DNA of 28,791 bases from a virus, in IMG/VR virus record IMGVR_UViG_3300035156_000057, positions 1-28,791 of that record; one strand, written 5' to 3'. The notes below the pieces were generated by a model that was not told where the DNA came from, made no database searches, and was given only the letters and a program-made list of their open reading frames with translations. Below are positions 7,085 through 28,630 of the stretch, one piece after another. Both the position numbers and the translations under genes were made by a program. Every line of letters starts with the position of its first letter. Position 1 is the stretch's first letter.

Positions 7085-7464
7085 TGGCCCGCTGGCCGGA
7101 CGTGGAGTTCATCGTCGGCGCCTACCTCCGCGCGTCCCTCACTGGCACCCGGGTGGTCACGAAGCTCCCTGCGAACCTTGAGGCGTCGTTGCCGCTGGTG
7201 TGGGTCGCCCGCGGCCCCGGTTCCGACGACGGGTTCACCGACTCCCCGCTGATGGACGTGGCCGCGTTCGCTGCTAGCCGCGCCGAGATGTGGTCGTTGG
7301 CGGAGGACGCGCGGGAAGCGATGCACGCCCTCGCCGGCCGGGCCGTCAACGGTGCGCTGGTGGACACGGTCGACACGGCTGTGGGCCCTGTTTGGTTGGA
7401 CTACGAGAACGACGCGGTGAACCGCGCGGTGGCGTCGTACCGCCTTGCGCTGCGGCGCTCCTGA
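7084..7464 (+). CDS. Tail terminator protein
   Basis: A 126-residue protein expected to cap the tail tube and join it to the head. It has an N-terminal helix with DVEFIVGAYLRASLTGTRVV, a strand PLVWVARGPGSDDGFTDSP, a helix MDVAAFAASRAEMWSLAEDA with continuing helix, and terminal strands ending ASYRLALRRS. This alternation of helix and strand is typical of gpU-like terminators. Its ATG overlaps the preceding TGA. The next gene in this phage type is normally the major tail protein, but here an HNH gene intervenes; the terminator itself is intact. Confidence 0.78.
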   Translation: MARWPDVEFIVGAYLRASLTGTRVVTKLPANLEASLPLVWVARGPGSDDGFTDSPLMDVAAFAASRAEMWSLAEDAREAMHALAGRAVNGALVDTVDTAVGPVWLDYENDAVNRAVASYRLALRRS

Positions 7465-7501
7465 TACCCACCCAAGTTAGTAGAATGATGGCAAGGAAAG
7501 A

Positions 7502-7530
7502 CCCCCGCACCGATTGCAGTCGGCCGGGGG
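7502..7530 (+). promoter_or_regulatory. Stem-loop before HNH gene
   Basis: CCCCCG (7502-7507) pairs with CGGGGG (7525-7530), and CCGA (7510-7513) pairs with TCGG (7520-7523), with CA opposite C as a small internal loop and a TTGCAG apex. No T-run follows. It stands between the tail terminator gene and the HNH gene, in a patch more A/T-rich than its surroundings, and may limit or reset expression at the insertion. Confidence 0.5.
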
Positions 7531-7559
7531 CGTGGGCGACACCGGGAAGGGTGCCGACG

Positions 7560-8249
7560 ATGAGCAACGCTACATGCCTGTGGCCTGACTGCGAGAAGCT
7601 TGCTCACGCACGGGGATTCTGCAACCGAGACGCGCAGCGGGCGAGACGTGAAGGCAACTTCGTGGACCCGTGGGTGACGTGGGCGCCCAGGAAGGTGCGT
7701 CCGCCGCGCTGTCAGTGGCCGGACTGTGAGAGCGCCACGCTAGCCCGCGGGTTGTGCGCCACCCACCACCAACGAGCACGGAAGGTCGGCACCTTCGACC
7801 AGCCGTGGACGCGCTGGCGCGAGGAACGAAACTGCGCTTGGTGCGGTGACACCTTCAAGAGCCCCGCGCACCGCGACACCCGGTGCTGCTCGTTTGCCTG
7901 CTCCACAAAGCTGTGGAAGAGGGCGAACCCTGACAGCGTCCGCGCCCACGGACAGGATGCGAAGTTCAAGCGACGCGCCCGACTGCGCCAAGCACCCTAC
8001 GAGTCGTTCACCATCGCTGATGTCCGAGCCCGTTACGGCGACGACTGCTACCTCTGCGGCGAACCCATCGACTTCCGGTTGAAGTGGCCGCATCCTCTAT
8101 CGCCCTCGCTTGACCACGTCGTGCCGTTGGCGCGCGGCGGGAAGCACACGCTGGACAACGTTGCGATGACCAACCTCGCGTGCAACCTGCGGAAGCACGT
8201 CCGGCCGGCAGCGTCACCACCCATGCCCACCCTGCTCATCATCCGGTAG
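7560..8249 (+). CDS. HNH endonuclease, free-standing homing type (putative)
   Basis: A 229-residue DNA-cutting enzyme candidate. Residues 6-41 and 51-86 are two copies of a cysteine-rich unit with the pattern CxWPDC...ARGxC...QRAR..G.F..PW..W. A CAWC...CC..AC cluster spans residues 92-114. The C-terminal HNH nuclease has CYLCG (163-167), SLDHVVPLARGGKHTLDN (183-200) and NLACNLRK (205-212): Asp185, His186, an Asn and zinc cysteines 163, 166 and 208. ATG 7560 has AAGGG at 7547-7551; ATG 7485 in the same frame lacks a ribosome site and would place the upstream stem-loop inside the gene. Codons are visibly less G/C-biased than in neighbours. It separates two genes normally adjacent, and both flanking genes are intact, so it is a free-standing insertion rather than an intron. 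Confidence 0.88.
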   Translation: MSNATCLWPDCEKLAHARGFCNRDAQRARREGNFVDPWVTWAPRKVRPPRCQWPDCESATLARGLCATHHQRARKVGTFDQPWTRWREERNCAWCGDTFKSPAHRDTRCCSFACSTKLWKRANPDSVRAHGQDAKFKRRARLRQAPYESFTIADVRARYGDDCYLCGEPIDFRLKWPHPLSPSLDHVVPLARGGKHTLDNVAMTNLACNLRKHVRPAASPPMPTLLIIR

Positions 8250-12946: not shown

Positions 12947-13977
12947 TGCCGATCCCCGTTGGGCCGGCGCCTGTCGTCACCCCGCCGACACCGGGGCAGC
13001 CGGGTCAACCGCAGCAGCCGGGGCAGCCGACCAGGCCGGGGCCGCGGCAACCGCCTCCCCCTATCCGTGAGCCGCTGCCCCCGCCGGACATCGGTGGGTT
13101 CAGCGTGTCTTTGACGAAGGCGTCCACGACTGTGGCGCTTGAGCCTCGGGATGGGCACTCCGGGCCGTTCCTGATGCCGGGGGTGGAGGGGTTGGGGTTC
13201 GCCCCGGTGGAGCTGTTCGGGCCGCCCCTGCCGGATGGGGATGGGTCGGTGTTCCTGGGGTCGAGGTTCGGGGACGGGCGGGTGTTCCTGCCCATCTTCA
13301 TCGGTGCCCGGGACTGGCCGTCGTTGCGGGAGCACCGCCGGCAGCTTGAGCGTGTGTTGGACCCGGCGACGGGTCCGGTGCGGGTGTACCTGACGCAGCC
13401 CGACAGCAGCGCGGCCCGGTACGTGGAGGGGTACTACGCCGGCGGGATGGAAGGCGGGTACGGCGCGGACGAGGCTGGTTGGTCGTGGCAGAAGGTCGGC
13501 GTGGAGATTCGGTGCTTCGACCCTGCCGCGTATGGGGAGACGGTGACGCAGCCGTGGTCGGTGACGGGTGCGCCGCGCCCGTTCCTGTCGACCACGACGG
13601 CGTTCTTCCCGGTGGTGCTGGGGGACTCGTTGGTGGGTGGTGAGCGGGTCCTGACGAACGCTGGGGACATCGACGCGTGGCCTGTGACGGTGGTGACGGG
13701 CCCGGGGTCGGGGCTGGTGTTGTCGAACTTGACGACGGGGAAGACGTTCGCGTTGACGGGGGACATCACGTCGCCGGTGACGGTGGATGCGCGTCCGCGT
13801 GGCGCGGCTGATGTGTTCGACGCGTCGGGTGACTTGTGGGACCGGGTGACGTTGGGGTCGAGTCTGTGGCCGTTGGTGCCGGGCCCGAACCGGGTCCGGG
13901 TGACGTTGATCGGTGCCACCAGCGCGTCGTCCATCAGTGTGTCTTGGCGGCCCACGTACCGGTCGCTGCACGGCTGA
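12946..13977 (+). CDS. Distal tail protein (Dit-like minor tail protein)
   Basis: A 343-residue protein directly after the tape measure, the usual place of the Dit hub that joins tail tube and tip. From about residue 50 it reads as a Dit-type protein: GFSVSLTKASTTVALEPRDG, then VFLGSRFGDGRVFLPIFIGA, DWPSLREHRRQLERVLDPAT, and a body in beta strands closing with NRVRVTLIGATSASSISVSW. The N-terminus is odd: residues 1-47 contain 21 prolines with glycine and glutamine (PGQPGQPQQPGQP), an extended tail not normal for Dit. GTG 12946 overlaps the tape measure stop (TAGTG), and the far end overlaps the next gene as TGATG. Confidence 0.82.
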   Translation: MPIPVGPAPVVTPPTPGQPGQPQQPGQPTRPGPRQPPPPIREPLPPPDIGGFSVSLTKASTTVALEPRDGHSGPFLMPGVEGLGFAPVELFGPPLPDGDGSVFLGSRFGDGRVFLPIFIGARDWPSLREHRRQLERVLDPATGPVRVYLTQPDSSAARYVEGYYAGGMEGGYGADEAGWSWQKVGVEIRCFDPAAYGETVTQPWSVTGAPRPFLSTTTAFFPVVLGDSLVGGERVLTNAGDIDAWPVTVVTGPGSGLVLSNLTTGKTFALTGDITSPVTVDARPRGAADVFDASGDLWDRVTLGSSLWPLVPGPNRVRVTLIGATSASSISVSWRPTYRSLHG

Positions 13978-15128
13978 TGCGGGCGACGGTGTTCGTCCGG
14001 GACCGGAACCGGGTGCGGCGTGGTCCGCTGCCCGTGGTGAGCGGGGCGGCGGTGCTGCGGGTCAACACGGTCGGGTCGTGGCGGTTCGACGTGGACGCCG
14101 GGCACGTCAAGGCGGGCCGGCTCGAGCCGGGCGGTGGGGTTGTTGTGGTGGACGACGACACCGGCGAGGTCGTGTTCAACGGGCCGATCACGCAGCTGTT
14201 GAACGTGGCCGCGGCGGATGGTCCGGTGCGGACCCTGCAGGTGTCCGGGGTCACCGACGAACAGCACCTCGCGGACAGGGAAGTGTTGCCGAACCCGGCC
14301 GCTGACGTGACCGCGCAGACCGCTGTGGCCCGCTACGAGGCGTCGGGGCCGGCGGGGACAGTGATCCGGGCACTGGTGAACTCCCAGGCCGCTACGGGGG
14401 CCACTGTGCCCCGCAGGGTGCCCGGCCTGGCCCTGTCCGCCACCGGGGATGGGATCGGCGGGACGGTGTCCGTGTCGGTCCGGTTCAAGCCGCACCTCCT
14501 GGCGACCTTGACTGCGTTGGCGGACACGGGCGGGGTCGTGTTCCGGGTCGTGCAAGAGGGCACCGCGTTGGTGTTCCGGGTGTGGGTGCCGCGGGACCTG
14601 TCGAGGCGGGCCCGGTTCTCACGGGAACTGGGGAACCTCGGAGGGTTCTCCTACGGGTTGTCCGCGCCAGCCGTCACCCACGTCCCTGTCCTCGGGCAGG
14701 GCGAAGGTGTCCTCCGCACCGTCAGGCAGCGGGTCAACGACTCCCCCGAGGCGTTGGTGTGGGGGCGGCGGATCGAAGGGTCCATCGACCGGCGGGACAC
14801 CGACACCGACGACGTCCTCGACCAGGCCGGCGCCGAAGCCCTCCTCGAGGGTGGCCCGGCCGCGTCGCTCGAGTTCGACCCCGTGGACTTGCCCCGCCTG
14901 CAGTACGGGCGGGACTACCGCCTGGGGGACCGGGTCACCGTGGAGTTTGACACCGACACCCGCCTGACGGACGTGGTCCGGGAGGTGTCCCTCGCGTGGG
15001 AACCCCACGGGGTCACCGTGACCCCCCTGGTCGGGCCTGAGTCCGCGCGGGACTCACGGGACCGGTTGGTGGTGGCCCGGGTCAGGTACCTCAAGGCGCG
15101 ACTGGACAAGTTGGAGGCTGACCGCTGA
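13977..15128 (+). CDS. Minor tail protein, Gp37-like (tail tip)
   Basis: A 383-residue protein of the ReqiPepy6 Gp37-like group, which forms the tail tip hub (Tal position) in many actinophages. Family-like stretches include VFVRDRNRVRRGPLPVVSGA at the N-terminus, a strand series with VVVDDDTGEVVFNGPI, HLADREVLPNPAADVTAQTA in the first third, LVWGRRIEGSIDRRDTDTDD in the second half, and GRDYRLGDRVTVEFDTDTRL near the end, followed by a basic helix KARLDKLEADR. ATG 13977 overlaps the Dit stop (TGATG). The frame is open further upstream to 13836, but that is inside the Dit gene. It carries no peptidase motif. Confidence 0.85.
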   Translation: MRATVFVRDRNRVRRGPLPVVSGAAVLRVNTVGSWRFDVDAGHVKAGRLEPGGGVVVVDDDTGEVVFNGPITQLLNVAAADGPVRTLQVSGVTDEQHLADREVLPNPAADVTAQTAVARYEASGPAGTVIRALVNSQAATGATVPRRVPGLALSATGDGIGGTVSVSVRFKPHLLATLTALADTGGVVFRVVQEGTALVFRVWVPRDLSRRARFSRELGNLGGFSYGLSAPAVTHVPVLGQGEGVLRTVRQRVNDSPEALVWGRRIEGSIDRRDTDTDDVLDQAGAEALLEGGPAASLEFDPVDLPRLQYGRDYRLGDRVTVEFDTDTRLTDVVREVSLAWEPHGVTVTPLVGPESARDSRDRLVVARVRYLKARLDKLEADR

Positions 15129-16132: not shown

Positions 16133-16600
16133 GTGGCTGTTCCTAGCACGCACGTCCGGTACGGCGGTGGGCCTGGTGACTTCGTGGGCGCGGGTACCTC
16201 CGGTGGGCCGTTGCTCCTCGCGGGTGGGGCGCTCCTGTCGGTGTGGCCCTCCGAGGTTGGGGGGGTGCAGGTCCGGGACCTGTTCAACGAGTCGCAGGAC
16301 GCGGTGGAACTGATCACCGCGGACAGCTTCGGCAACTTCGAGGTCTACGCGCCCGAGTCGTACGGGACGGTGTACGTGTCCACCGATGGTGGCGCGACGC
16401 GGTACCCGATCCAACCGTCGGACATCGGCCGGCAGGTGGGGATTCTGCGGGAGCGGGTCGCGAACATCCCCACGGACACGGGAGTCCCCGGTGGCGGGGG
16501 TGGGGGGACGGGCATCCCGGACGTCTTCGTCGCCGCGTCCGAAGCTGACGCTGCGAACGCCCCCGAGGGGTCACTTGTTCTAGTTCGGAGGGACGCCTGA
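16133..16600 (+). CDS. Minor tail protein
   Basis: A 155-residue protein of likely tail-tip role. It is beta-rich with an aspartate-containing middle section (VQVRDLFNESQDAVELITAD, GTVYVSTDGGATRYPIQPSD) and a glycine-rich hinge of about ten residues near 122-131. The C-terminal segment PDVFVAASEADAANAPEGSL followed by VLVRR is a short module that recurs at the ends of many phage tail proteins. GTG 16133 is preceded by GGAGGG (16121-16126). The following gene starts within its stop (TGATG). Confidence 0.68.
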   Translation: MAVPSTHVRYGGGPGDFVGAGTSGGPLLLAGGALLSVWPSEVGGVQVRDLFNESQDAVELITADSFGNFEVYAPESYGTVYVSTDGGATRYPIQPSDIGRQVGILRERVANIPTDTGVPGGGGGGTGIPDVFVAASEADAANAPEGSLVLVRRDA

Positions 16601-19600
16601 TGGCGGTCGCGCACGCATGGGTGGGGAACCAGTCCGCCACGGGGTTCGGGGTCACGGTCAAGGCGACCGGGGCCATCCGGGTCAAGGCCGGCACGAACAC
16701 CGGGGTCACGACCGGGGTGGTGTTCTCCACGTCGGTGACCCCGTCCAGTGGGTACGCGACGTGCCAGGTGACGGGGCTTACCCCGAACACCCAGTACTAC
16801 TACGTGGTTGAGGAAGCGGGTGTCCTGTCGACTACGACGGGTCGGGCCCGGACGTTCCCCACCGCGGGGACCGCGGCGAACTTCACGGTGGCGTTCTCGT
16901 CGTGCTTGGAGACGGGGAACACGCTGCGGACGGCGTTTGACCGGGTCGTGTCGTTGAACCCGATGTTCTTCGCGCACCGTGGGGACTTCCACTACGGGGA
17001 CAACTCGTCCACGTCTGAGGCGACCCAGCGGGGTCTGCTGGACGCGCAGATTCAAGTGAACCTTGGGCTCAAGGCGATGCTGGCGCAGACGCCCACGTAC
17101 TACCACCAGTCGGACCACGACGCGGGCGCGAACGACGCTGACCCTGGCCCGTACACGGTGCCGATCCAGAACGCCACGAAGATGCTGACCCCGCAGACGT
17201 CGTACCCGGTGGCGGGGACGTTGGCGTACGCGTTCACGGTGGGCCGGGTCCGGATGATCTTTCTGGACTCCCGGTCGCCGGCGAAGTCGTTGAAGGCCGC
17301 CACGGACAACTCGTCCAAGACGATGCTGGGGGCGGCGCAGAAGGCGTGGCTCAAGACGGAGCTGCTGCGGTCTGAGCCGTTGAAGATCATGTTCGGTGAC
17401 ACGGTGTGGATTCAGACGCCGGACTCCGGTGAGGACTCCTGGTCGTCGTTCAACACGGAGCGCACCGAGCTGGGGAACTTCATCCGGACGAACAACCTCG
17501 TCCAGAACGTCCTGTACTGCGGTGGGGACTCGCACAGCATCATGGCGGACTCGGGTGTGAACAACGCCTGGGGTGGGTTCGCGGTGATGGGTGGGGCGTC
17601 GCTGGGGCAGTCGGCGTCGATCAAGGGTGGACCTTGGTCGCAGGGCGCGACGGGTGGGCCGGGGCAGTTCGGGCACATCACGGTCACGGACAACGGGTCG
17701 ACGTTGACGTGGGCGTACGCGGGGTACCGGTCGACGGGTGCGACGGCGCACACCCTGTCCCGGTCGATCAGTACTTCGACGGTGACCCCGCCGGTGGACC
17801 CGGAGCCGGTCACCCCGGACCCGACGACTCCGACGGAGCCGTTGCCGCCGGCGCCGGCTGTCGGCGCGGTGAAGAACATCTTCGCGACGGAGGCGGAGAT
17901 TCAGTCGCTTCCGGTCACGGGGACGGCGTGGGACCGGGTGAAGGCGATCAGCACCACCGATCCCGGGGTGGGGCAGTTGGGTGCGATCAGCTCGACGCAT
18001 GGGCCTTCGCTGATCGTGATGGCGTTGCGGTGGCGCCGCGACGGTGGCGGTCTTGGCCGGCAGGTCGTGATCGACCACGCCTTGCAGGCGTTGGCGACGT
18101 ACGACGACCCGATCGACCAGCCGTTGAACCCGTACCGGCAGATCGGCGCGTACGTGCGGGCCCTGGACTTGGTGGACGCGTCGATGGCGACGCCCGTCCC
18201 CGGGACCGGTCTGACCCTGGGCGCCTTGTACGACCGGCTCGTCACGTACGACTTCCTGACCGCCACCGGTGTGTCGGGGAACGCGCGGTGGGCGAACGCG
18301 CTCGAGACGACCCGTGACTCCGGGTCCAACTGGGGGTCGATGGCCCGGGACATGGTCGCGGCCATCGGGCTGATCCGCGGGAACCAGGTGTGGATCGACC
18401 TGGCCCGGAAGTCCCACAAGCGGATGCTCGGTGACCTGACCGTCCACAACCAGGGCACCAGCGGGACGTCCACGAACCCCCGGTTCACCACGCAGACATC
18501 GATCAGCGCGGCGTGGTTCCCGGCGGGGTACTCCTACCCGGACACGACCGGGGCGATCAACCCGGCGGTGGCGGACCTCGACCTGGCCGGCGCGAACGCG
18601 GTGGAGGCTTCCCGCGGGTCCGCCGCGCCGCCGCTGTCCGCGTCCGGGCTCGGGTACACGATGGAGTCGTGGGAAGGGATGGTCGCGACCTCCCTGCTGT
18701 TCCTGCACGCCGGGTACCCCGACGCGCTGACGTGGGGGAACAACGCGATCGCGCGGAACGCGGCGAACTTCAACCGTTACGGCGGGTGGACTGACAACGC
18801 GTCCACTCAGGCGGCGCGGCGGTTCCTGGCGCACCTGTGCAACTACCTGTTCGGGACCACGTACAACGCGATCCCGGTGGTCGACGCTCAGGCTGGCCGG
18901 CGGATGCTGCCGGACGTCATCCCCTGGTTGGTGCAAGGGTCGTGGTCGAACACCGGGTCAGGGGGTGGGACCACACCGGTCGTGGTGCCTCCCACCGTGT
19001 CCCTCACCCTCGCCCTGGCGGCGCAGGAACGGACCATCGACGCGCAGGCCACGGTGACGGCTGGGTCGTCTCCTGCGTTGACGGCTCGGTTCGACTGGGG
19101 CGACGGGTCCGCGTCGACCGTTGACTCCTCCCCGCCGTTCGCGGCGCTCCACACGTACTCCACGGCCGGCCCGAAGACGGTGTCGGTGACGGTGACAGCG
19201 CAGGACGGGTCCACCGCCACAACGTCCGCGACCCGGACGCTGCCTCAGCCGGGTGTCACGACTCCGACGGCGGCGTTCACCGCGACCACCGCGACCCGTG
19301 GCCGCACCCCCCACACGGTCCGGTTCACCCTCGCCGGGACAGCGTCAGGGAACGCCACGTCGGTCGTCGCGGACGTGGACTTCGGTGACGGGCAAGGGCT
19401 GGTCAACGCGCCCCTGTCGGGGACGTTCGACCACACCTACCAAGCGTCGTCGTTCCCCGCGTCGTTCATCGCCCGGGTCACCGTCACGCAGGCGTCCACC
19501 GCGGAAGTGGTGACGAGGTCGGTCGCGATCACGGTCGACGCCCCCCTCGAGCAGGCGTCGTACTTGGAGCTGTTCGGGTACAAGGAGGAGGGGACGGTGG

Positions 19601-19728
19601 TCCCGTTGCGGGCACCGTCGACCGGGCTGTTGCGTGCGCGGGGGTTCACCGACGCTGTGGCGCTCCCGCAGGCGGAGTACGACGCGCTACCGGTGAAGGA
19701 CCCGTCCACCCTGTACATCACGTTCTGA
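16600..19728 (+). CDS. Tail protein: PhoD-like phosphatase, helical lyase-like and PKD domains
   Basis: A 1042-residue modular tail protein. Residues 1-92 look like an FN3-type domain (GYATCQVTGLTPNTQYYYVV), as at the N-terminus of PhoD. Residues 95-385 are a PhoD/alkaline phosphatase D-type metallo-phosphodiesterase: FSSC (Cys102), HRGDFHYGD (126-134), HQSDHD (169-174), LDSRS (222-226) and GGDSHS (308-313). A proline/threonine linker follows. Residues about 424-785 are an alpha-helical domain with SNWGSMARDMVAAIG and WFPAGYSYPDT, reminiscent of alpha/alpha-toroid polysaccharide lyases. Two PKD-like domains (RFDWGDGS near 831; VDFGDGQG near 927) and a C-terminal PQAEYDALPVKDPSTLYITF, shared with other phage structural proteins, complete it. 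Phosphatase call good; lyase call tentative. Overlaps both neighbours by TGATG. Confidence 0.85.
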   Translation: MAVAHAWVGNQSATGFGVTVKATGAIRVKAGTNTGVTTGVVFSTSVTPSSGYATCQVTGLTPNTQYYYVVEEAGVLSTTTGRARTFPTAGTAANFTVAFSSCLETGNTLRTAFDRVVSLNPMFFAHRGDFHYGDNSSTSEATQRGLLDAQIQVNLGLKAMLAQTPTYYHQSDHDAGANDADPGPYTVPIQNATKMLTPQTSYPVAGTLAYAFTVGRVRMIFLDSRSPAKSLKAATDNSSKTMLGAAQKAWLKTELLRSEPLKIMFGDTVWIQTPDSGEDSWSSFNTERTELGNFIRTNNLVQNVLYCGGDSHSIMADSGVNNAWGGFAVMGGASLGQSASIKGGPWSQGATGGPGQFGHITVTDNGSTLTWAYAGYRSTGATAHTLSRSISTSTVTPPVDPEPVTPDPTTPTEPLPPAPAVGAVKNIFATEAEIQSLPVTGTAWDRVKAISTTDPGVGQLGAISSTHGPSLIVMALRWRRDGGGLGRQVVIDHALQALATYDDPIDQPLNPYRQIGAYVRALDLVDASMATPVPGTGLTLGALYDRLVTYDFLTATGVSGNARWANALETTRDSGSNWGSMARDMVAAIGLIRGNQVWIDLARKSHKRMLGDLTVHNQGTSGTSTNPRFTTQTSISAAWFPAGYSYPDTTGAINPAVADLDLAGANAVEASRGSAAPPLSASGLGYTMESWEGMVATSLLFLHAGYPDALTWGNNAIARNAANFNRYGGWTDNASTQAARRFLAHLCNYLFGTTYNAIPVVDAQAGRRMLPDVIPWLVQGSWSNTGSGGGTTPVVVPPTVSLTLALAAQERTIDAQATVTAGSSPALTARFDWGDGSASTVDSSPPFAALHTYSTAGPKTVSVTVTAQDGSTATTSATRTLPQPGVTTPTAAFTATTATRGRTPHTVRFTLAGTASGNATSVVADVDFGDGQGLVNAPLSGTFDHTYQASSFPASFIARVTVTQASTAEVVTRSVAITVDAPLEQASYLELFGYKEEGTVVPLRAPSTGLLRARGFTDAVALPQAEYDALPVKDPSTLYITF

Positions 19729-21395
19729 TGCCTCAGCTGACGTGGGCGGGGCTTCGCCTTGGGTCCGCACAGGCGGCGCGGGCGTACCTGGGTGAGGTGG
19801 AGGTGTGGTCCCCGGAGTCGGACACCCCGGTCGAGTTCCGGGCGAAGTACCGCCCGGTGTACCGCCCGACGTACGAGGCGCCCACTGCGGCACCCAGCGA
19901 GGACGTGACCGCCCCGACGGCCCCGACGGGGTTGGCGGCGGCGGTGTTCACGGCCACGTCGGTGACGTTGACGTGGAACGCGTCGACCGACGCGGTGGGG
20001 GTGACCGGGTACGAGGTGTTCCGCGGCGGGGTGCTGTTGACGACCACGACCAGTCGCAGCTTCACGGTGACGGGGTTGACCCCGGCGACGGCGTACACGT
20101 TCACGGTTCAAGCTAGGGACGCGGCGGGGAACCGGTCGGCTGTGGCAACGGTGACCCGGACGACCGCGACAGCACCGGACACTGCGGGCCCCACGGTGGC
20201 TGTGACGGCCCCAGCGGCGGGGGCGACGGTAACTGGTACCGCCACGGTTTCCGGGACGGTCACGGACCCGTCAGGGGTCGCAGGGGTGCAGGTCCGCGCC
20301 AACGGCGTCACTCTCGGGAACGCCACCGTGGGGTCCGGGACGTGGACGTACGCGTGGGACACCACGGGCCGGGAGAACGGGTCCGTGTCCCTGACCGCCA
20401 GGGCCACGGACACGGCGGGGAACGCGACCATCTCGACGGGCCGGTCCGTCACCGTCACGAACGCCACCGCCCCGCCACCTCCTCCGGGCGGGAACGACCC
20501 GTTGGGGGCGTGGGACACGGGGTACGTCGGGCCGATCCCCGCGGACGCGGTGACGTTCTCTGGGACCACCGGGGCCGCCCTCCGCACCGCGATCCTCGCT
20601 CTGCCGGCGGGGAAGTGGTTGAAGGTCACGTCCACCACGATCACCGGGAGTATGCAGATCAGTTCCGGGCTCAAGGACAACATCGTCATCTGCAACGCCC
20701 CCGGTGTGCGCCCGACGATCCTCAACGGGCTGGTCACGATGGAGGGCGGGTTCGGGTGGCGGTGGCTCGGTATTGACATCCGGTACCCGTCGCCACCGGC
20801 CAGCTCCCACATCGCGAAGTTCGACGGGGGCTCCCGGTGGGAGGTCGCGTACTGCCGGGTGTACGAGACGCAGTGCTTCACCCTGGCCCGGGTCGGGCGG
20901 GGCGCCACGAACTGGCGGTGCCACCACATGCGGGTGGACGACAACCTCCCCGCGAACGGCACCAACCAGGACCACTGCTTCTACGTGGACCCCGAAGTGA
21001 TCGCGCAGAACGGGCGGATCGACCACTGCATCATCAGTGACTCCCCGAACGGGCGCGGCGTGAAGATCGGCGGCCCGTCCTCGGGTGGCGCGATCGGTGG
21101 GGTCCGGGTCGACCACAACACCATCCACCACTGCACGGGCCCGTCCGCGGTGCAGGTGTCCAACGGCGCCACGAACTGCGTCATCGAGAACAACGTGGTG
21201 TGGGCCTGTGGGCCAACGTCGTTCACGGACGGGCCGGGGTCGCTGGGCGGGAACTTGTACCGGAACAACGCGACGGACGTCCCCGCCGACAACACCGCGA
21301 ACCTGCGGGACGCCGGCGGCAACGTGATCCGCACCCTCGCCCAGTTGCAGGACGCCACGTTGATGGCGTCGCAGGGATACGGGCACCTGGCATGA
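19728..21395 (+). CDS. Tail protein: FN3, Ig-like and beta-helix domains
   Basis: A 555-residue modular protein. Residues 1-45 (WAGLRLGSAQAARAYLGEVE) look like a virion-anchoring part. Residues 63-147 form an FN3 domain (AVFTATSVTLTWNASTDAVG, then FTVTGLTPATAYTFTVQARD). Residues 150-250 form a bacterial Ig-like domain (VAVTAPAAGATVTGTATVSG, SGVAGVQVRANG, YAWDTTG). After a five-proline linker, residues about 265-530 are a right-handed beta-helix of the pectate-lyase-like type, seen from stacked repeats such as IDHCIISDS, VDHNTIHHC and VIENNVVWAC, with many Asn/His/Cys in ladders. Such helices are typical of tail spikes and polysaccharide depolymerases. A catalytic site cannot be named. It sits between two enzyme-bearing tail proteins. 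Confidence 0.8.
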   Translation: MPQLTWAGLRLGSAQAARAYLGEVEVWSPESDTPVEFRAKYRPVYRPTYEAPTAAPSEDVTAPTAPTGLAAAVFTATSVTLTWNASTDAVGVTGYEVFRGGVLLTTTTSRSFTVTGLTPATAYTFTVQARDAAGNRSAVATVTRTTATAPDTAGPTVAVTAPAAGATVTGTATVSGTVTDPSGVAGVQVRANGVTLGNATVGSGTWTYAWDTTGRENGSVSLTARATDTAGNATISTGRSVTVTNATAPPPPPGGNDPLGAWDTGYVGPIPADAVTFSGTTGAALRTAILALPAGKWLKVTSTTITGSMQISSGLKDNIVICNAPGVRPTILNGLVTMEGGFGWRWLGIDIRYPSPPASSHIAKFDGGSRWEVAYCRVYETQCFTLARVGRGATNWRCHHMRVDDNLPANGTNQDHCFYVDPEVIAQNGRIDHCIISDSPNGRGVKIGGPSSGGAIGGVRVDHNTIHHCTGPSAVQVSNGATNCVIENNVVWACGPTSFTDGPGSLGGNLYRNNATDVPADNTANLRDAGGNVIRTLAQLQDATLMASQGYGHLA

Positions 21396-21414
21396 CCACC
21401 TTGAGAGGACAGTG

Positions 21415-24400
21415 ATGGCTGCGACACCGCTGAACGTCCCGACCCGGCAGACCGAGCCGGAAGGTGGCACGCCTCGCGCTCCGGTGGCTGGGGAGCCGGC
21501 CGCGGACATCAACGCGATCGTCGCTCACACGAACGACGTGGTGGTCCCCGAGGTCAACGACAAGGTGTCGGTGAACGACCCCCGGCTCACTGACTCAAGG
21601 ACTCCGACGGCTCATACGCACCCTGTCTCGAACATCGTGGCGGTGGGGGTGCGGAACGCGACCACGTTCCTCCGTGGTGATGGTGCTTGGGCGCTGCCCC
21701 CAGCTGGCGGCGACGGCACCCCGACGCAGCCGACGCAGCCGGTCGACCCGGTGGACCCCACGTTGCCGCCTGACCCGAACGACCCGGACGGTCCGGACCC
21801 TGTCAACCCTGGGCCGGTGACCGACCCTGACACCGGGGTGGTGACCCGTCCGGTGCCGCCCCCGCCGGTGGGTCCGACGGTGACGACCCGCACGTTCTCC
21901 GTGTCGACGGTCGCGGCGCTGCGGACGCGCTTGGCGGATCTGACGATGGGTGACCGGATCAACCTGACCGGGGTGGTGTTCGCCGCGTCGGACACCGACC
22001 CCGCGGTGGTTCCCCGGACGAACGCTGCCGGTGCGACGTTCACGGCGTCCGCGTCGTTCGTCATCAACACCCCCAAGGGGCTGGCGGGGATGACCCCGGC
22101 GCAGGCCCGGGCGGCGATGCCCGTCATCAGCGGCGTCCCGGGAGCCACGGTCAACGGTGTGACCGGGCCGTCCCCGACCATCCTGCGGAACGGTCGCGGG
22201 ACCAGCGGGTACACCCTGTTCCTTGACCGCGCCCACTACGTCCGCCTCGAGAACTTGACCCTCGAGAACGGCGAGAAAGGTCTCATGGCGCATGAGACCA
22301 CCTACGGGCACCACATCAACCTGACGATCAAGAACGTCGGGCATGAGGGGTACCACCTGCGGAACAACTCCCACCACAACCACGCCTACAACGTGCGCGT
22401 CGATGGGACCGGGCTGACCACCCCGGACTTCGGTGAGGCGTTCTACTTCGGGATGGCGGCCACCTCTCGGACCGCGTCGTACTCGATGGTGTCGTCGTCC
22501 GCCCTCGACAAGTCGGACTACAACGAGCTGATCAACTGCACCGCGGTGCGGTTCACCGCTGAGGGTGTCGACGTCAAGGAGATGACCACCGGCAACCACA
22601 TCGGGTGGTGCAGCTTCGACGGTGGGTCCATCTCCGGGGCGAACAACGCCGACGGGTACATCGACTGCAAAGCCAACGACACCCTCATCGAGTACAACAA
22701 GGGCACCAACCCGTCAGCGGTGGTGCTGCACGGCGCGGAGACCCACATCCTGCTGTCCGGGTGGGGCAACCGGAACGTGTTCCGGGGGAACACGTTCGCC
22801 GCCGGCGGGAAGACCACCTCCAACATCATCAACATCCAGGAGACCGGTTCGCGGGGGACCGCCGTCGGGAACGTCGTGTACTCCGACAACGGTGGGACCG
22901 GCGCACCCGCTGGGCTGACGAACATCACCGTCACCCCCGCCGCGGGTGGCACTGCGCCCACGACGGGCGGCGGTGCGGGTGGCGACCCCACAGCGTCCCC
23001 CAGGTCGTGGTTGACCCCGTACTGGCGGCTGCACCTGCCGCTGCCGAACGCGGCCGGGACGTCCCTGCTTGAGGTCCACAACCCGGCACTGTCCACCACG
23101 TACTCCTCGCAGTGGTTCGCGGTCACCCCGGACGACCTGCAGATGACGGTCCGCGCCGACGGGTACGCGTCCTCGAACTCGTCCTACCCGCGGTCGGAGC
23201 TGCGGGAGACGAAGGAGGACGGGACCAACGCGTCCTGGGCGACCACCGTCGGGTACCACACCCTGAGCGTGTCGGGTGCGATCCTCGAGCTGGTCGCGAA
23301 CAAGAAGCGGGTCATCCTCACCCAGGTCCATTACGGCGGGTCGGACCTCGTTGTCACCCGTACCGACTCCAACGGCGCCGGTGGCCTGCAGGTCGCCTTC
23401 TGGTACCAGGACCTTGAGTCGGTCGTGGTGGAGCCGAACTACATCCTCGGGACCCGGTATACGATCCAGAAGGTCGTGTACGGCGGGAAGGTGTACTGCT
23501 ACTGGAACGGGGTCCTGCGGGCCACGTTCACGGACACCGTCAACACCAGCACCAACTACTTCAAGGTCGGCGCGTACTTCCTGACCCGCACGGGCCTGGT
23601 GTTCGAGGGTGGGGCGGCGGAGCCGGCGTCGTCCTACGCGAAGGTGTCGGTCGTCGCCCCCAGGGTCACGCACGCTTCCGCGCCTCCCGCGTTGCCGGTG
23701 TCCGCGACCGCTTCCAGCGGTGGCGATGGTGGTGGGCAGGACTTGTCGGGGTACGCGACCCGGGCGGAGCTGACGGGGTACGCCACCGACGCGGAACTGG
23801 CGGCGGGCTTACAGGGTAAGGCGAACCAGGCGACGGTTGACGCTGCGGTGTCGACGCCGGTCCCGACCAGTCTGATGCGGCGTGACCCGGCGGGTCGGAC
23901 ACAGGTCGCCGTCCCAGTCGCTCCGGGTGACGCCGCGACGAAGGGGTACACCGACGCCCTCGGTACTGCTGCGGCGACCCCGGGGACGGTGGTCCGTCGT
24001 GACGCGGCGGGCCGGTTCCAGACGGTGGACCCCGCGGCGGGGCAGGACGTCGCGACGAAGACGTACGTCGACGCGAAGCCACCCCTCGCGCACACCCACC
24101 CGGTGGGGGACCTGACCGCGACCGGCACCAGGGACGCCACCACGTTCCTCCGTGGGGACAACACGTGGGCCGCCCCAGCCGGCGGTGGTGGTGTTGGGGG
24201 TGTCCCCGGGTCGCTCCTGGACGCGAAGGGTGACCTGATCGTCGCCACCGCCGCGGACACCCCGGGGCGTCTCGGGGTCGGCGCGAACGGGCTCGTCCTG
24301 ACGTCGGACTCCACCACCACAGCGGGCATGCGGTGGGCGCCCCCGGCGACGTCGACCCCCGTGGTCGACGCCACCACCGCAGTCAAGGGTGTCGCCCGCA

Positions 24401-25185
24401 TCCTCAGTGGTACCGCCGACGCCCCCCTGGTGCCCGCCGCGTCGGTACCCGTCGCGGCGTTGCCCGGGTCGGAAGCCACCAACGCACAAGAAGCCTTCGA
24501 GGAACTCGCCGGCCGGCAAGTCGGGATCACCCAGGCGTACACGTCCGTCAGGGCCGCCGGTGGGACCGCTGTGCCGGCACGCAGCGTCCTTGAGGTCGTC
24601 GGGGGCGCCGTCACCGACGACCCGACCCTGGGTGTCACCCGCCTCGACGTGTCGACGTTCCCGGCGATCATCACCTCTCTGGGTGCGGACTTCACCATCC
24701 CCGCGCAGGCGACGCCGACGACGACAGCGGTCGGTGTCACCGGTCAGGGCGAACTGGCCTTCGACGTCGTCGCGGGACAGGAGTTCTTCATCCAGGCCAG
24801 CATCCTCTACCGGGTCAGCGCTGACACCGGGATGCGGTGGCAGATCACTGGGACGGTGGGAACGGCGTTCACGATGGTGGGGAACTCCTCCGGGGACGTC
24901 TTCAACCCCGCCGCCGCCGTAGGTTCCCGGACGCCCACTGTCACGGGGTCGGACACGGTGGCCCGCCCGATCACCGCGCAGGAAAGCGTGGGCCCGCAGA
25001 CAGCGCGGTACGTCGGCGGCAGAGGGCTCGGCATCAGCGCTTCGCTAAGCCTGACCGGGGTGCGTGTCCTGGTGACCGGGTCAGGGCGGGTCCTGTTCAA
25101 GGTGGGGCAGGGTGTGGGGAACACGACGGAAACCACCGGCCGGGTCGCGGCCGGGTCGTGGCTCCTCGCGGCGCGGTACGCCTGA
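21415..25185 (+). CDS. Tail fibre/spike with beta-helix and PL7 alginate-lyase-type domain
   Basis: A 1256-residue fibre. Residues about 68-99 are a fibre module (THPV...ATTFLRGDGAWALP), repeated at about 894-925. A proline/aspartate-rich linker leads to a beta-helix at about 165-525 (YVRLENLTLENGEKGLMAHE, ADGYIDCKANDTLIEYNKGT). Residues about 530-745 carry the three PL7 signatures: RSELRE (593-598), QVH (637-639) and YFKVGAY (715-721). In that family the His and the last Tyr are the catalytic pair (His639, Tyr721), and uronate polymers are cut by beta-elimination. Fibre repeats with DAATKGYTDAL and DVATKTYVDAK follow, then a terminal beta-sandwich. ATG 21415 is favoured by GAGAGGA at 21403-21409; GTG 21412 is too close to it. 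Confidence 0.88.
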   Translation: MAATPLNVPTRQTEPEGGTPRAPVAGEPAADINAIVAHTNDVVVPEVNDKVSVNDPRLTDSRTPTAHTHPVSNIVAVGVRNATTFLRGDGAWALPPAGGDGTPTQPTQPVDPVDPTLPPDPNDPDGPDPVNPGPVTDPDTGVVTRPVPPPPVGPTVTTRTFSVSTVAALRTRLADLTMGDRINLTGVVFAASDTDPAVVPRTNAAGATFTASASFVINTPKGLAGMTPAQARAAMPVISGVPGATVNGVTGPSPTILRNGRGTSGYTLFLDRAHYVRLENLTLENGEKGLMAHETTYGHHINLTIKNVGHEGYHLRNNSHHNHAYNVRVDGTGLTTPDFGEAFYFGMAATSRTASYSMVSSSALDKSDYNELINCTAVRFTAEGVDVKEMTTGNHIGWCSFDGGSISGANNADGYIDCKANDTLIEYNKGTNPSAVVLHGAETHILLSGWGNRNVFRGNTFAAGGKTTSNIINIQETGSRGTAVGNVVYSDNGGTGAPAGLTNITVTPAAGGTAPTTGGGAGGDPTASPRSWLTPYWRLHLPLPNAAGTSLLEVHNPALSTTYSSQWFAVTPDDLQMTVRADGYASSNSSYPRSELRETKEDGTNASWATTVGYHTLSVSGAILELVANKKRVILTQVHYGGSDLVVTRTDSNGAGGLQVAFWYQDLESVVVEPNYILGTRYTIQKVVYGGKVYCYWNGVLRATFTDTVNTSTNYFKVGAYFLTRTGLVFEGGAAEPASSYAKVSVVAPRVTHASAPPALPVSATASSGGDGGGQDLSGYATRAELTGYATDAELAAGLQGKANQATVDAAVSTPVPTSLMRRDPAGRTQVAVPVAPGDAATKGYTDALGTAAATPGTVVRRDAAGRFQTVDPAAGQDVATKTYVDAKPPLAHTHPVGDLTATGTRDATTFLRGDNTWAAPAGGGGVGGVPGSLLDAKGDLIVATAADTPGRLGVGANGLVLTSDSTTTAGMRWAPPATSTPVVDATTAVKGVARILSGTADAPLVPAASVPVAALPGSEATNAQEAFEELAGRQVGITQAYTSVRAAGGTAVPARSVLEVVGGAVTDDPTLGVTRLDVSTFPAIITSLGADFTIPAQATPTTTAVGVTGQGELAFDVVAGQEFFIQASILYRVSADTGMRWQITGTVGTAFTMVGNSSGDVFNPAAAVGSRTPTVTGSDTVARPITAQESVGPQTARYVGGRGLGISASLSLTGVRVLVTGSGRVLFKVGQGVGNTTETTGRVAAGSWLLAARYA
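21616..24186 (+). repeat. Duplicated fibre module flanking the lyase domains
   Basis: Codons for THPVSNIVAVGVRNATTFLR (from 21616) and THPVGDLTATGTRDATTFLR (from 24094) are two copies of one module, each followed by GD, a Trp and a glycine-rich end. They share ACCACGTTCCTCCGTGG exactly. The copies bracket the beta-helix and PL7 parts of the same gene. Confidence 0.75.
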
Positions 25186-26630
25186 TGGGTATTCCGCTGC
25201 TCATGGGGAAACGTCAGCGGTTCGGGCAGACCGCGCCTATCGTGGTGGACCCCGGACCTGGCGACGAAGACCTGACGGTTCCGCTGGTCACACCGATCGG
25301 CCGGTCTCACGGGGTGATCGAGTCCCTGTCGGTCGGCTTGCAGCCCACTGGTGGGGTGTGGACGGATGTGACCGCAGCCCAGTTCCAGACGGACCTGCAG
25401 TACCTGGGGTTCTCCGAGGTCCGCATGTCCCGGGTCGACACCAACCAGGCGAACCAGTCCCGGCTGATGAACTTGGCCGGCGACGTCGGGTACAAGGCGA
25501 ACATCATCATCGATGACGTGGGGGCACAGACCATCGAAAGTAGGTGGGCGCACGTCAAGGCCGCGTGGAACCGCATCCAGGTGGTGCGGGTGGAGATGGC
25601 GAACGAACCGCAGAACGGTGGCGGGTGGACCCCGGCGACGTGGCCGCTGGGTGTGGCAGCTACCCCGACGTACACAGGCGCGTCCAACGACCTACCCGTG
25701 AACGAGGTCCACGCGCAGCAGCGGCGGCTGCACGCGACCGTGCGGGGCGACGCGGACCCGGTCCTGTCGCGTATCCCGATCGCGTGCTCGTCGTTGGCGT
25801 TGCGTGACCAGGCCGCGTGGTGGGGGTCGTACGCGAGGAACCGCCCGGTCGACGGGCCGGTCGGGGAGCGGTCGTTCTTCTCGGACTTCAACTTCCACAT
25901 GTACCAGGCTGGTCGGAGGTTCCGGAAGAAGTTCACGGAGTCCCGGGAGACGGCTCCGGAGACGATCAACGCGGCGAGGGCGGCGTTCCCTGAGTCCGCG
26001 GCGGCGCCGCTGCTGTTCTCCGAGACAGGGTTCCATAACTTCACGGGCGCGGACTCGCACAACCCGACCCCGGAGGACGTCGCGGGTATCTACGCCGCGG
26101 ACTTCCCGTTCGAGGCTGCGACGCTGGGGATCGGGGTCATCTCGTTCCATCAGATGTACAACGATGACCGGCACGCCGCGGGCCGGGAGGGGTACTTCGG
26201 GTTGTTCCGGGCGCCGGGCGACCCGAAGCCCATCGCGGACACCCTGCACCGCATCACCGGGTTGTACGCCGATCCCGGGGCGACGGCTGTGCCGTTGAAA
26301 CCGTTGCGGTTCAGCATCAGTGGTGGTGGGACGGACCTGCGGTCCCAGTTGCGGCAGCGCCGGGACGGGTCGTGGGACTTGGCGTTGTGGCGGGACGTGT
26401 CGATCTACACCCCGGCGACGTCCATCGCGGCTGGCACCCGCTTGGCGAACCCGGCCCCGACGAACGTCACCTTGAAGTTCTCGAGGGCTAGGACCGTCAC
26501 GGGGTACACCCCGTACAGCGCGGCGGCACCGACCCTTGCTGCTACCACGGGGACCGTGGTCGGGTCCGGGCCGGCCCGGCAGGTGGTGGTCCCTGTCGAC
26601 CACAACCTGCGGACGCTGCGGATCGTGTGA
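25185..26630 (+). CDS. Glycoside hydrolase-like tail protein (TIM-barrel, putative)
   Basis: A 481-residue protein. Residues about 40-340 look like a clan GH-A glycosidase barrel: an early strand EVRMSRVDTN, then VVRVEMANEPQN with Glu141 in the NEP motif (expected acid/base), FSDFNFHMYQ, and LLFSETGFHN with Glu280 (expected nucleophile), then LGIGVISFHQMYNDD. The spacing of the two glutamates, 139 residues, is reasonable for the clan. Residues about 360-481 are a beta-sandwich of the kind that closes such enzymes (LRSQLRQRRDGSWDLALWRD, NVTLKFSRARTV). No signal peptide; the virion is the likely location, because it follows three tail proteins with TGATG overlaps on both sides. A cleaving role on host surface glycans is inferred; the exact family is unknown. 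Confidence 0.75.
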   Translation: MGIPLLMGKRQRFGQTAPIVVDPGPGDEDLTVPLVTPIGRSHGVIESLSVGLQPTGGVWTDVTAAQFQTDLQYLGFSEVRMSRVDTNQANQSRLMNLAGDVGYKANIIIDDVGAQTIESRWAHVKAAWNRIQVVRVEMANEPQNGGGWTPATWPLGVAATPTYTGASNDLPVNEVHAQQRRLHATVRGDADPVLSRIPIACSSLALRDQAAWWGSYARNRPVDGPVGERSFFSDFNFHMYQAGRRFRKKFTESRETAPETINAARAAFPESAAAPLLFSETGFHNFTGADSHNPTPEDVAGIYAADFPFEAATLGIGVISFHQMYNDDRHAAGREGYFGLFRAPGDPKPIADTLHRITGLYADPGATAVPLKPLRFSISGGGTDLRSQLRQRRDGSWDLALWRDVSIYTPATSIAAGTRLANPAPTNVTLKFSRARTVTGYTPYSAAAPTLAATTGTVVGSGPARQVVVPVDHNLRTLRIV

Positions 26631-27303: not shown

Positions 27304-27752
27304 CGATGGAGACGATCGTCGGGACCGCAGTCGCGGCCGGCGGGGCCGGGGTCCTCGGGGCCATCGTCAATGGCATCGTCAACCGGAGGAAGCTCGGGGC
27401 CGACGCGACAGAGGCCATCTCGCGGGCTGCGGGGTCGATGGTCAGCAGGCTTGAGGAGGACAACGCGCGTCTGCGTGCGGAGCGGGAGGCGGATCACATC
27501 GCGATCCGGGAGCTGCAACGCACGGTCGACGGTTTGGTGTCCGGCGCCGCCGACCGAGAAGCCTGGTTCATGTTGTACCAGGAGGCGCTGCGGAACATGT
27601 TCGCGGTTCACATGGCGTACGACGAGCGGATCATCGCCAGGCTCAAGGAGGCCAGCGTTGTTGACGTGCCGAAGCCTCCGACGTTGGAGATACCCGTGAT
27701 CACCGATGAGCAGGTCAACGCCGCGTCGCGACGTGGACGGAGTCGGCTGTGA
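27300..27752 (+). CDS. Single-span membrane protein with coiled coil (holin-like)
   Basis: A 150-residue protein with one small glycine/alanine-rich membrane segment near residues 5-26 (IVGTAVAAGGAGVLGAIVNG), then a helix and a coiled coil at about 50-85 (SRLEEDNARLRAEREADHIA, then RELQRTVDGL), and a soluble C-terminal part ending in basic residues SRRGRSRL. This form, and the position between another membrane protein and the endolysin, fits a holin or a regulator of one. GTG 27300 is chosen because AAGGAG at 27286-27291 is eight bases ahead and the codon overlaps the preceding stop; ATG 27306 is an alternative. The end overlaps the endolysin start (GTGATG). Confidence 0.65.
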   Translation: MTMETIVGTAVAAGGAGVLGAIVNGIVNRRKLGADATEAISRAAGSMVSRLEEDNARLRAEREADHIAIRELQRTVDGLVSGAADREAWFMLYQEALRNMFAVHMAYDERIIARLKEASVVDVPKPPTLEIPVITDEQVNAASRRGRSRL

Positions 27753-28630
27753 TGCTCACCGATCTGGCTGAGGCTTGCCGGAAGTCGGGGTTGCGGGTGG
27801 TGGAGCGGTCGGGGTGGAAGACCCGCGGTTACGGGCCGATGCGGGCGGTGGAGTCCATCACCTGCCACCACGACGTCACCCCGAACCACCTCACCGAGGG
27901 AGCCCTCGGGTACATCGAGGCGAACCGGCTGTCCCAGTTGACGTTGGCCCGCGACGGAACCGTGTACGTCGTCGCCGCCGGCCTCTGTTACCACGCCGGC
28001 GTCGTCCACCAGTCGTGGATGGGGAACTCCTACGCCATCGGCATCGAAGCAGCCCACTCCGGGAACCCGCGGGACGCGTGGCCAGGTGTGCAGTACGCCG
28101 CGTACGTCCGGCTGGTAGGGGCACTGAGCGCCCACTACGGGGTGCCGCTGGCCCGGGTCCTCGGGCACAAGGAGGTCGCCCGACCGACGGGACGGAAGAC
28201 GGACCCGACGTTCGACATGGACGAGTTCCGCCGGGACGTCCGGAACTACTTGAGCAGCGCCCACAAGGCGGACGAAGAGGAGGACGACATGCCGTGGAAC
28301 GACGAGGTCAGGCAGGACATCAAGCGGATCATCGCGGAGACCCTGCGGGAGAACGTCGGGGACATCGCCGCGCAGGATGAGAAGTCGTGGTGGCGCACCG
28401 GGCAACTGGGGCTGATCCAGGCTGGAACGACCTCAGTCCTCCGCAGCGAGGGTGTGTCGGGGGCCGGTGACTTGGGGCGGACGATCGCAGCCCTCGCCCC
28501 CCTGGTCAGCGGGGACGACGGGAACGGCCTGTCCGAGGACGATGTGCGGAGGGTCGCGGAGGCTGTGCAGCGGTTGGACGCGAAGGCTGTCGCGGAACAG
28601 CTCGCGGTGGTGTCACGGGCCGATGCCTGA
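27752..28630 (+). CDS. Endolysin, N-acetylmuramoyl-L-alanine amidase
   Basis: A 292-residue lysis enzyme expected to cut between the glycan and the stem peptide of host peptidoglycan. The N-terminal two thirds (1-165) is an Amidase_2/PGRP-type domain: ITCHHDVTPNH (His39, His40) near the start, ARDGTVYVVAAGLCYHAGVV, NSYAIGIEAAHSG, and LGHKEVARPTGRKTDPTFDM with His139, Lys149 and Asp151. Zinc ligands are probably His39, His139 and Asp151, as in T7-lysozyme-like enzymes. After an acidic linker DEEEDDM comes a helical C-terminal region (about 180-292) without a known wall-binding motif. ATG 27752 overlaps the upstream stop; GTG 27749 is an equal alternative with GGACGGAG ahead. An internal start at 28289 could release the C-terminal part. 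Confidence 0.9.
   Translation: MLTDLAEACRKSGLRVVERSGWKTRGYGPMRAVESITCHHDVTPNHLTEGALGYIEANRLSQLTLARDGTVYVVAAGLCYHAGVVHQSWMGNSYAIGIEAAHSGNPRDAWPGVQYAAYVRLVGALSAHYGVPLARVLGHKEVARPTGRKTDPTFDMDEFRRDVRNYLSSAHKADEEEDDMPWNDEVRQDIKRIIAETLRENVGDIAAQDEKSWWRTGQLGLIQAGTTSVLRSEGVSGAGDLGRTIAALAPLVSGDDGNGLSEDDVRRVAEAVQRLDAKAVAEQLAVVSRADA
28276..28291 (+). promoter_or_regulatory. Internal ribosome site and start inside endolysin gene
   Basis: AGAGGAGG (28276-28283) is followed after five bases by an in-frame ATG (28289). Translation from here would give a separate 113-residue C-terminal protein ending at 28630. Some endolysins of Gram-positive phages do use such a second start to supply extra wall-binding subunits. 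The site also encodes an acidic linker, so chance resemblance is possible. Confidence 0.45.

Follow-up and report, generated by a model that had tools for sequence, protein, structure and literature searches.

A viral tail-gene block with PL31, PL7, PhoD-like and GH-A-like domains: a putative depolymerizing kit for acidic surface polysaccharides

Results

The four-gene block

This study concerns four genes, gp1 to gp4, of the linear IMG/VR virus record IMGVR_UViG_3300035156_000057, the whole of which (28,791 bases) was analysed and is referred to as the window. The genes were found to lie straight downstream of those encoding the tail tape measure protein (TMP), the distal tail protein (Dit) and a Gp37-like minor tail protein, and upstream of the endolysin gene:

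16600-19728, + strand: gp1, open reading frame (ORF) of 1042 aa
19728-21395, + strand: gp2, ORF of 555 aa
21412-25185, + strand: gp3, ORF of 1257 aa
25185-26630, + strand: gp4, ORF of 481 aa

A preliminary description of this DNA had reported four adjacent genes with overlapping or closely spaced starts at 16600-26630. This is indeed observed: TGATG stop/start overlaps occur at 16600, 19728 and 25185, and a gap of 16 nt separates the stop of gp2 from the start of gp3 (21412). By codon position, the block genes have the base composition of their structural neighbours, and the block enzymes show no obvious signal peptides. Two other ORFs of the region were discarded. A single ORF at 24837-26630 was rejected, the probable start of gp4 being the ATG at 25185 that overlaps the gp3 stop. 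A long antisense ORF at 16345-18936 was not retained either: the PhoD match falls on the + strand frame there, as do the PKD and Phage_tail_C matches farther on. With regard to the two features by which a tail-associated depolymerase is recognized, a gene located in the tail module and a protein that itself includes tail-type modules, both are present in gp1 (Phage_tail_C) and in gp3 (fibre repeats). gp4 is tied to the tail module through its gene position only. The PKD and Phage_tail_C modules of gp1, the fn3 and Big_7 domains of gp2 and the fibre repeats flanking the gp3 enzymes are additions to the preliminary description.

Two lyase domains in the fibre protein gp3

21412-21711, + strand: N-terminal tail-fibre repeat (HTHPVSNIVAVGVRNATTFLRGDGAW), which repeats at gp3 890-925
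21883-22926, + strand: polysaccharide lyase family 31 (PL31) domain, a parallel beta-helix
23005-23667, + strand: PL7 domain
23734-24186, + strand: tail-fibre coiled/collar repeat region, with matches to minor tail proteins and to the tail fibre family phrog_18673
24199-25182, + strand: C-terminal fibre head, no family

Both enzyme domains of gp3 sit between tail-fibre repeats. The N-terminal repeat, AHTHPVSN..RNATTFLRGDGAW, comes back at residues 890-925, and a match to minor tail proteins from phages of Arthrobacter and Corynebacterium covers residues 797-912. A beta-helix and a PL7 lyase had already been proposed for this protein; both are confirmed, and the helix can now be assigned more precisely to PL31. 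A phmmer search of the PDB with the beta-helix (residues 158-505) returned a single match, PsAly (6kfn, E 2e-21), which we take to be the founder of PL31 in the CAZy classification. The two proteins share 30% identity over 221 aligned residues, and 321 bacterial relatives of the domain were found.

All ten key residues of PsAly are kept in gp3: K128, H154, R156, E181, Y184, E216, D219, K221, D250 and K252 correspond to K289, H315, R317, E342, Y345, E384, D387, K389, D418 and K420, respectively. K389 is the base, Y345 the acid, and E342, E384 and D387 form the metal site. The kept positions include residues whose mutation cut or abolished the activity of PsAly (PMC6796002). Set against the 30% background identity, the retention of 10/10 residues has a binomial probability of ~6e-6, a rough value as these residues are conserved family-wide; the core set is likewise kept in 21 bacterial relatives (22-sequence alignment). 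Two residues of the second cation site are altered (Y244N and Q276E).

The PL7 domain (residues 532-752) matches Pfam PF08787 with an E value of 2.5e-22 (80 bits, cut-off 29.7) and PDB 1uai with an E value of 4e-26 (36% identity in the alignment). Its motifs RSELR (594-598), QVH (638-640) and YFKVGAY (716-722) are intact, and the active-site residues that they hold (R594/E596/R598, Q638, H640, Y716/Y722) are shared by almost every one of 27 other viral copies. PsAly, which its authors described as a novel lyase, acts preferentially on mannuronate (PMC6796002), while 1uai bears the name polyguluronate lyase, so that the two domains of gp3 could be complementary in specificity.

In a tree of PL31, the four viral copies do not form one clade; three label changes are needed, forced by well-supported branches, and PL31 has likely been captured repeatedly by viruses. 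The window copy groups with Frankiaceae, its exact place being unsure given its very long branch (1.5).

The PhoD-like protein gp1

16600-17784, + strand: PhoD-like metallophosphodiesterase domain with PAP/PhoD-type N-terminal beta domain (Pfam PhoD, PDB 2yeq, ligand alignment)
17872-18945, + strand: middle domain, apparently helical
18997-19539, + strand: two PKD repeats (spacer; PKD_4 E 1e-11, two stretches)
19669-19725, + strand: C-terminal Phage_tail_C (tail tip) domain (PF24243 E 4e-8)

Residues 1-395 of gp1 are PhoD-like, as had been suggested, with a Pfam PhoD match above the cut-off (E 4e-12, 46 bits, cut-off 27) and a match to PDB 2yeq (E 5e-9). In Bacillus PhoD, iron is held by Cys and Tyr among others, and calciums by Asp/Asn (PMC4223295). 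The key ligands are present in gp1 as C102, D129, Y132, D172, D174, D179, D310 and H312, which fit the Fe/Ca pattern (Cys or Asp, GDxxY, DHD..N/D, GDxH), the Asp-rich part having been mapped through phage relatives and motif knowledge rather than a full PhoD alignment. D179 is Asn in the phage relatives of gp1, and Asn272 of Bacillus PhoD is sometimes replaced by Asp (PMC4223295).

The middle domain (~360 residues, about 425-782) had been described as helical and lyase-like, for which an alpha/alpha-toroid polysaccharide lyase was considered. This could not be upheld. No Pfam family up to E 10 and no PHROG or PDB relative was found; the 50,697 phage records that were searched gave only a chance match (E 5), and with a genome scan and 424 actinobacterial genomes the one hit, of chance-like quality, fell within a gene of pilus type. 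A single-sequence AlphaFold2 (AF2) model reached a predicted local distance difference test score (pLDDT) of 34.7.

The GH-A-like protein gp4 and the beta-helix of gp2

25296-26270, + strand: gp4 clan GH-A (PslG/GH39- and GH17-like) hydrolase (family profile, conserved columns)
26292-26627, + strand: gp4 C-terminal beta domain, conserved with bacterial relatives
19905-20456, + strand: gp2 fn3 and Big_7 domains (Pfam E 1.5e-11 and 1.3e-17; phage tail PHROGs)
20511-21272, + strand: gp2 C-terminal beta-helix, with weak chondroitinase B/PL6 resemblance below cut-offs

gp4 is nearly unseen by Pfam (Cellulase E 0.02), and no relative was found at E 1e-5 among the phage records. Its bacterial relatives share 22-26% identity, one being fused to CBM60 and one to ricin-type lectin domains, and a related domain occurs in two viral loci, one of them with three tandem copies. 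A profile of seven members matches PslG (E 1e-8) over ~100 residues, only part of the barrel being aligned, and a beta-1,3-glucanosyltransferase, a GH17-type enzyme (E 1e-6). The catalytic set comprises the acid/base E141 in an NE motif (N140-E141), the nucleophile E280 and H238-x-Y240, all conserved among the relatives save one degenerate copy. We propose that E141 and E280 correspond to the acid/base Glu165 and the nucleophile Glu276 of PslG (PMC11912335). The GH-A-like hydrolase of the preliminary description is thus substantiated by the profile and the Glu pair. An AF2 model from five sequences had a pLDDT of 35.9. The locus with tandem copies (L103:8465-13357, an IMG/VR contig) holds a 1631-aa frame with three gp4-type GH-A domains, the third of which has lost the acid/base motif.

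The C-terminal region of gp2 is predicted to be a beta-helix, which is probable from a Pfam Beta_helix match below the cut-off (E about 0.002-0.003, 18 bits, cut-off 25.9). The fold given in the preliminary description is thereby weakly supported, and its enzymatic role is not: the Chondroitinas_B match is also below the cut-off (E 0.011, 15 bits, cut-off 24), an assignment to PL6 was rejected on these scores, and no relative was found in phages or IMG/VR. This helix may be a binding domain or an enzyme of unknown kind.

Relatives in phages and uncultured viruses

The phage records contained no credible relative of PL31; for PL7, they gave weak matches in Pseudomonas phages and no others. In IMG/VR, alignment-based scans detected at least 3 PL31 loci and at least 22 PL7 loci, both of which are lower bounds because the scans need exact patterns. 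Such scans were required to detect relatives of PL31, PL7 and gp4; single-sequence IMG/VR scans with the gp1 middle domain, gp4, the gp3 enzymes and the gp2 helix returned nothing.

Two loci, L116 and L111, carry a PL7 gene followed by a frame of 1000-1430 aa with a domain of the chondroitinase B/alginate lyase family PL6 (E 3e-38 and 1e-36) and PL7, and TMP and Dit lie just upstream of the lyase genes in L116. The coordinates of this multi-lyase design are L116:6050-11431 and L111:6063-11425. In L112, PL7 and PhoD are joined in one 629-aa frame (L112:3-1889) adjacent to a minor tail protein; another PL7 protein of this locus has a weak beta-helix. PL7 was also found inside large proteins near TMP (L118, L110, L105) and as two genes in L122. 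Two related actinophages, L097 and L098, have the TMP-Dit-Gp37 order of the window, which in L097 continues with two genes, a PhoD gene (899 aa), the endolysin and PL31. The neighbourhoods in L116, L111, L112 and L097 thus show that tail modules only distantly related to one another repeatedly combine a beta-helix lyase with PL7, or a lyase with PhoD. Within the collections searched, the window gp3 appears to be the only tail-borne PL31.

Genome context and probable host

10022-12946, + strand: TMP (PHROG TMP families down to E 1e-88)
12946-13977, + strand: Dit (phrog_33 E 4e-17; SPP1_Dit weak)
13836-15128, + strand: Gp37-like minor tail protein (Sipho_Gp37 E 4e-47)
27749-28630, + strand: amidase endolysin (Amidase_2 E 1.5e-18)

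The late region, on the + strand, shows the regular siphovirus order: terminase, portal, protease, scaffold, major capsid, HNH endonuclease gene, major tail protein, tail assembly chaperone, TMP, Dit, Gp37-like protein, two small genes, the four-gene block, a few short genes and the amidase endolysin. The portal and Gp37 proteins share ~32-38% identity with those of Streptomyces, Arthrobacter, Curtobacterium and Microbacterium phages. Given this likeness and the G+C content of ~69%, an actinobacterial host is likely. The HNH endonuclease gene (7290-8249), directly ahead of the major tail protein gene, is possibly a homing-type insertion. The best PHROG of the TMP (E 1e-138) bears the label endolysin, and a lytic domain or a misnamed family are both possible. 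No Rfam element and no tRNA was found in a scan of the window.

Discussion

A probable depolymerizing tail

We consider it probable that gp1 to gp4 are tail-tip or fibre proteins of the virion which jointly clear a path for the tail tip to the wall by depolymerizing a surface polysaccharide that is acidic and probably rich in uronate. In the PL31 domain of gp3, Lys389 would take the C5 proton and Tyr345 would protonate O4, with a cation on Glu342, Glu384 and Asp387 neutralizing the carboxylate; in the PL7 domain, His640 and Tyr722 would act together with Gln638 and the arginines of the RxExR motif. The two lyases, in tandem on the fibre, would cut a 4-linked uronate chain through beta-elimination. 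The PhoD-type Fe/Ca phosphodiesterase of gp1 would cut phosphodiester links or remove phosphodiester substituents, and gp4 would act as a retaining GH-A glycosidase (Glu141/Glu280) that hydrolyses neutral glycosidic links.

The best target may be a 4-linked uronate polymer, either mannuronate/guluronate (alginate)-like or mannosaminuronate. Among known actinobacterial wall polymers, the teichuronic acid of Micrococcus luteus has a comparable backbone, with 4-linked beta-mannosaminuronate and glucose ([4-beta-ManNAcA-(1-6)-alpha-Glc]n, PMC3005890). The combination of teichoic and teichuronic acid as targets remains a guess because the lyase families have been characterized on alginate and phospholipids are substrates of other members of the PhoD family (PMC4223295); for the PhoD domain, teichoic acid is just one candidate among others. 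The earlier proposal of a tail kit directed against an anionic glycopolymer nevertheless stands as the best reading, strengthened by the finding of PL31, which adds another family of uronate lyases, and by independent combinations of PL6 with PL7, PL7 with PhoD and PhoD with PL31 in other viral tail modules. For the middle domain of gp1 and the helix of gp2, an enzymatic nature is not supported.

Several observations weigh against this interpretation. The PL31 genes of L097 (9716-10744) and L098 (9869-10909) encode separate proteins downstream of the endolysin, that of L097 with a signal-peptide-like N-terminus. PL31 therefore need not be a tail enzyme everywhere, and in these phages it is possibly a matrix enzyme acting at lysis or secreted during lysogeny. 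In those Streptomyces and Microbacterium phages that were inspected, the PhoD gene is not among the tail genes. The long branch of the gp3 PL31 (1.5) marks a strong divergence that may have brought a change of substrate, and the structure models of the gp1 middle domain and of gp4 failed (pLDDT ~35). Finally, the presence of the proteins in the virion, their activity, the polymer and the host are predicted from sequence.

Alternative explanations

The same enzymes could be aimed at the surrounding matrix, made of alginate or of a Psl-like exopolysaccharide from biofilm bacteria or algae in the vicinity, so that virions diffuse to their actinobacterial hosts. PL31 and PL7 are alginate-lyase families, the nearest solved relative of gp4, PslG, acts on biofilm exopolysaccharide, and PL31 relatives occur in many soil Actinomycetota and in Paenibacillus. 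However, this would leave PhoD unexplained, the position of gp3 in the fibre suggests engagement of the cell surface, and the substrate known for a family does not establish that of a given member. We therefore regard it as rather unlikely.

It is also possible to imagine domains with little or no catalytic activity left, which would recognize the host as carbohydrate-binding receptor modules. Many phage fibres bind glycans without cutting them, and neither the gp2 helix nor the gp1 middle domain has a catalytic signature. This is difficult to reconcile with complete PL31 and PL7 active sites and the gp4 Glu pair despite ~30% identity elsewhere, as well as with the binomial value given above and the active site kept across nearly all viral PL7 copies, which makes recognition without cleavage an unlikely role. 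PhoD and the lyases could also be thought to serve auxiliary metabolism or lysogenic conversion, scavenging phosphate or carbon, with their genes merely placed near those of the tail. The stand-alone PL31 genes after the endolysin in L097 and L098 and the phage PhoD genes outside tails argue for this, but it is very improbable for the window enzymes, which are fused to tail-tip or fibre modules, lack obvious signal peptides and are encoded within the tail operon by genes whose starts overlap.

Significance

A depolymerizing tail as proposed here is not a new kind of system. What is new is a putative PL31 tail enzyme, the presence of PL31 and PL7 in one fibre, the density of enzymes, and the recurrence of PL6+PL7 and PL7-PhoD relatives. 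Similar multi-enzyme tails seem to occur in uncultured viruses and not among the 50,697 phage records. A tail, probably of a Gram-positive phage, with two uronate lyases of unlike fold, PhoD and a glycosidase points to an acidic actinobacterial surface glycopolymer, which may be undescribed. Beta-helix PL with PL7, or PL7-PhoD, is a searchable signature in uncultured viruses, and the domains are candidate probes for actinobacterial walls and polyuronate biofilms. More tentatively, and less likely than not, these tails might represent a lineage-spanning actinophage strategy in which tail tips join a pair of alginate-type lyases that differ in fold (PL31 or PL6, together with PL7), a phosphodiesterase and a glycosidase, implying an undescribed alginate-like or mannosaminuronate host polymer with phosphodiester substituents.

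Comparison with known systems

Depolymerase tails are best known as the single-enzyme tailspikes of Gram-negative capsule phages. Among individual enzymes, PsAly of Paenibacillus sp. FPU-7 (PMC6796002) is, like the gp3 domain, a beta-helix lyase by sequence, and the two share every catalytic or invariant residue as well as the first metal site; it differs in overall sequence (30% identity) and in the second cation site, partly changed in gp3, and the gp3 copy is fused to PL7 in a phage fibre. The polyguluronate lyase 1uai has the PL7 core and active site in common with gp3, where the copy is embedded in a phage fibre. In Pseudomonas syringae phages such as phiK7A1, PL7 is also part of a phage genome, but as a small, distant (27%) stand-alone gene among replication genes. 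PslG of Pseudomonas aeruginosa (PDB 5bx9), a GH39 endo-glycosidase, matches the family profile of gp4, including the region of the nucleophile Glu. However, the barrel is only partially aligned, and gp4 has no CAZy family assignment here.

With regard to phosphodiesterases, that of Thermobifida phage P1312 (KT021004) likewise has an N-terminal PhoD domain in a protein of ~1100 aa directly after TMP and a tail protein. In contrast to gp1, it has no Cys ligand at the aligned place and no relative of the middle domain, and no lyase gene is annotated beside it in the stretch seen. The GDPD domains of enterococcal phage tails (PMC10194240) are tail-borne phosphodiesterases proposed to cut teichoic acid, with several lysins per tail, but belong to GDPD rather than PhoD and are not accompanied by uronate lyases. 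The Curtobacterium prophage depolymerases (PMC9862828) are also enzymes of actinobacterial prophages, two of them similar to polysaccharide lyases (PL39-type alpha/alpha barrel); they lie downstream of the lysis module, and no multi-enzyme tail block is described.

L116, L111 and L112 resemble the window in having two lyase classes, or a lyase and PhoD, in one tail-module protein. They differ in that PL6 takes the place of PL31 in L116 and L111, whereas in L112 PhoD and PL7, which are separate proteins in the window, are fused.

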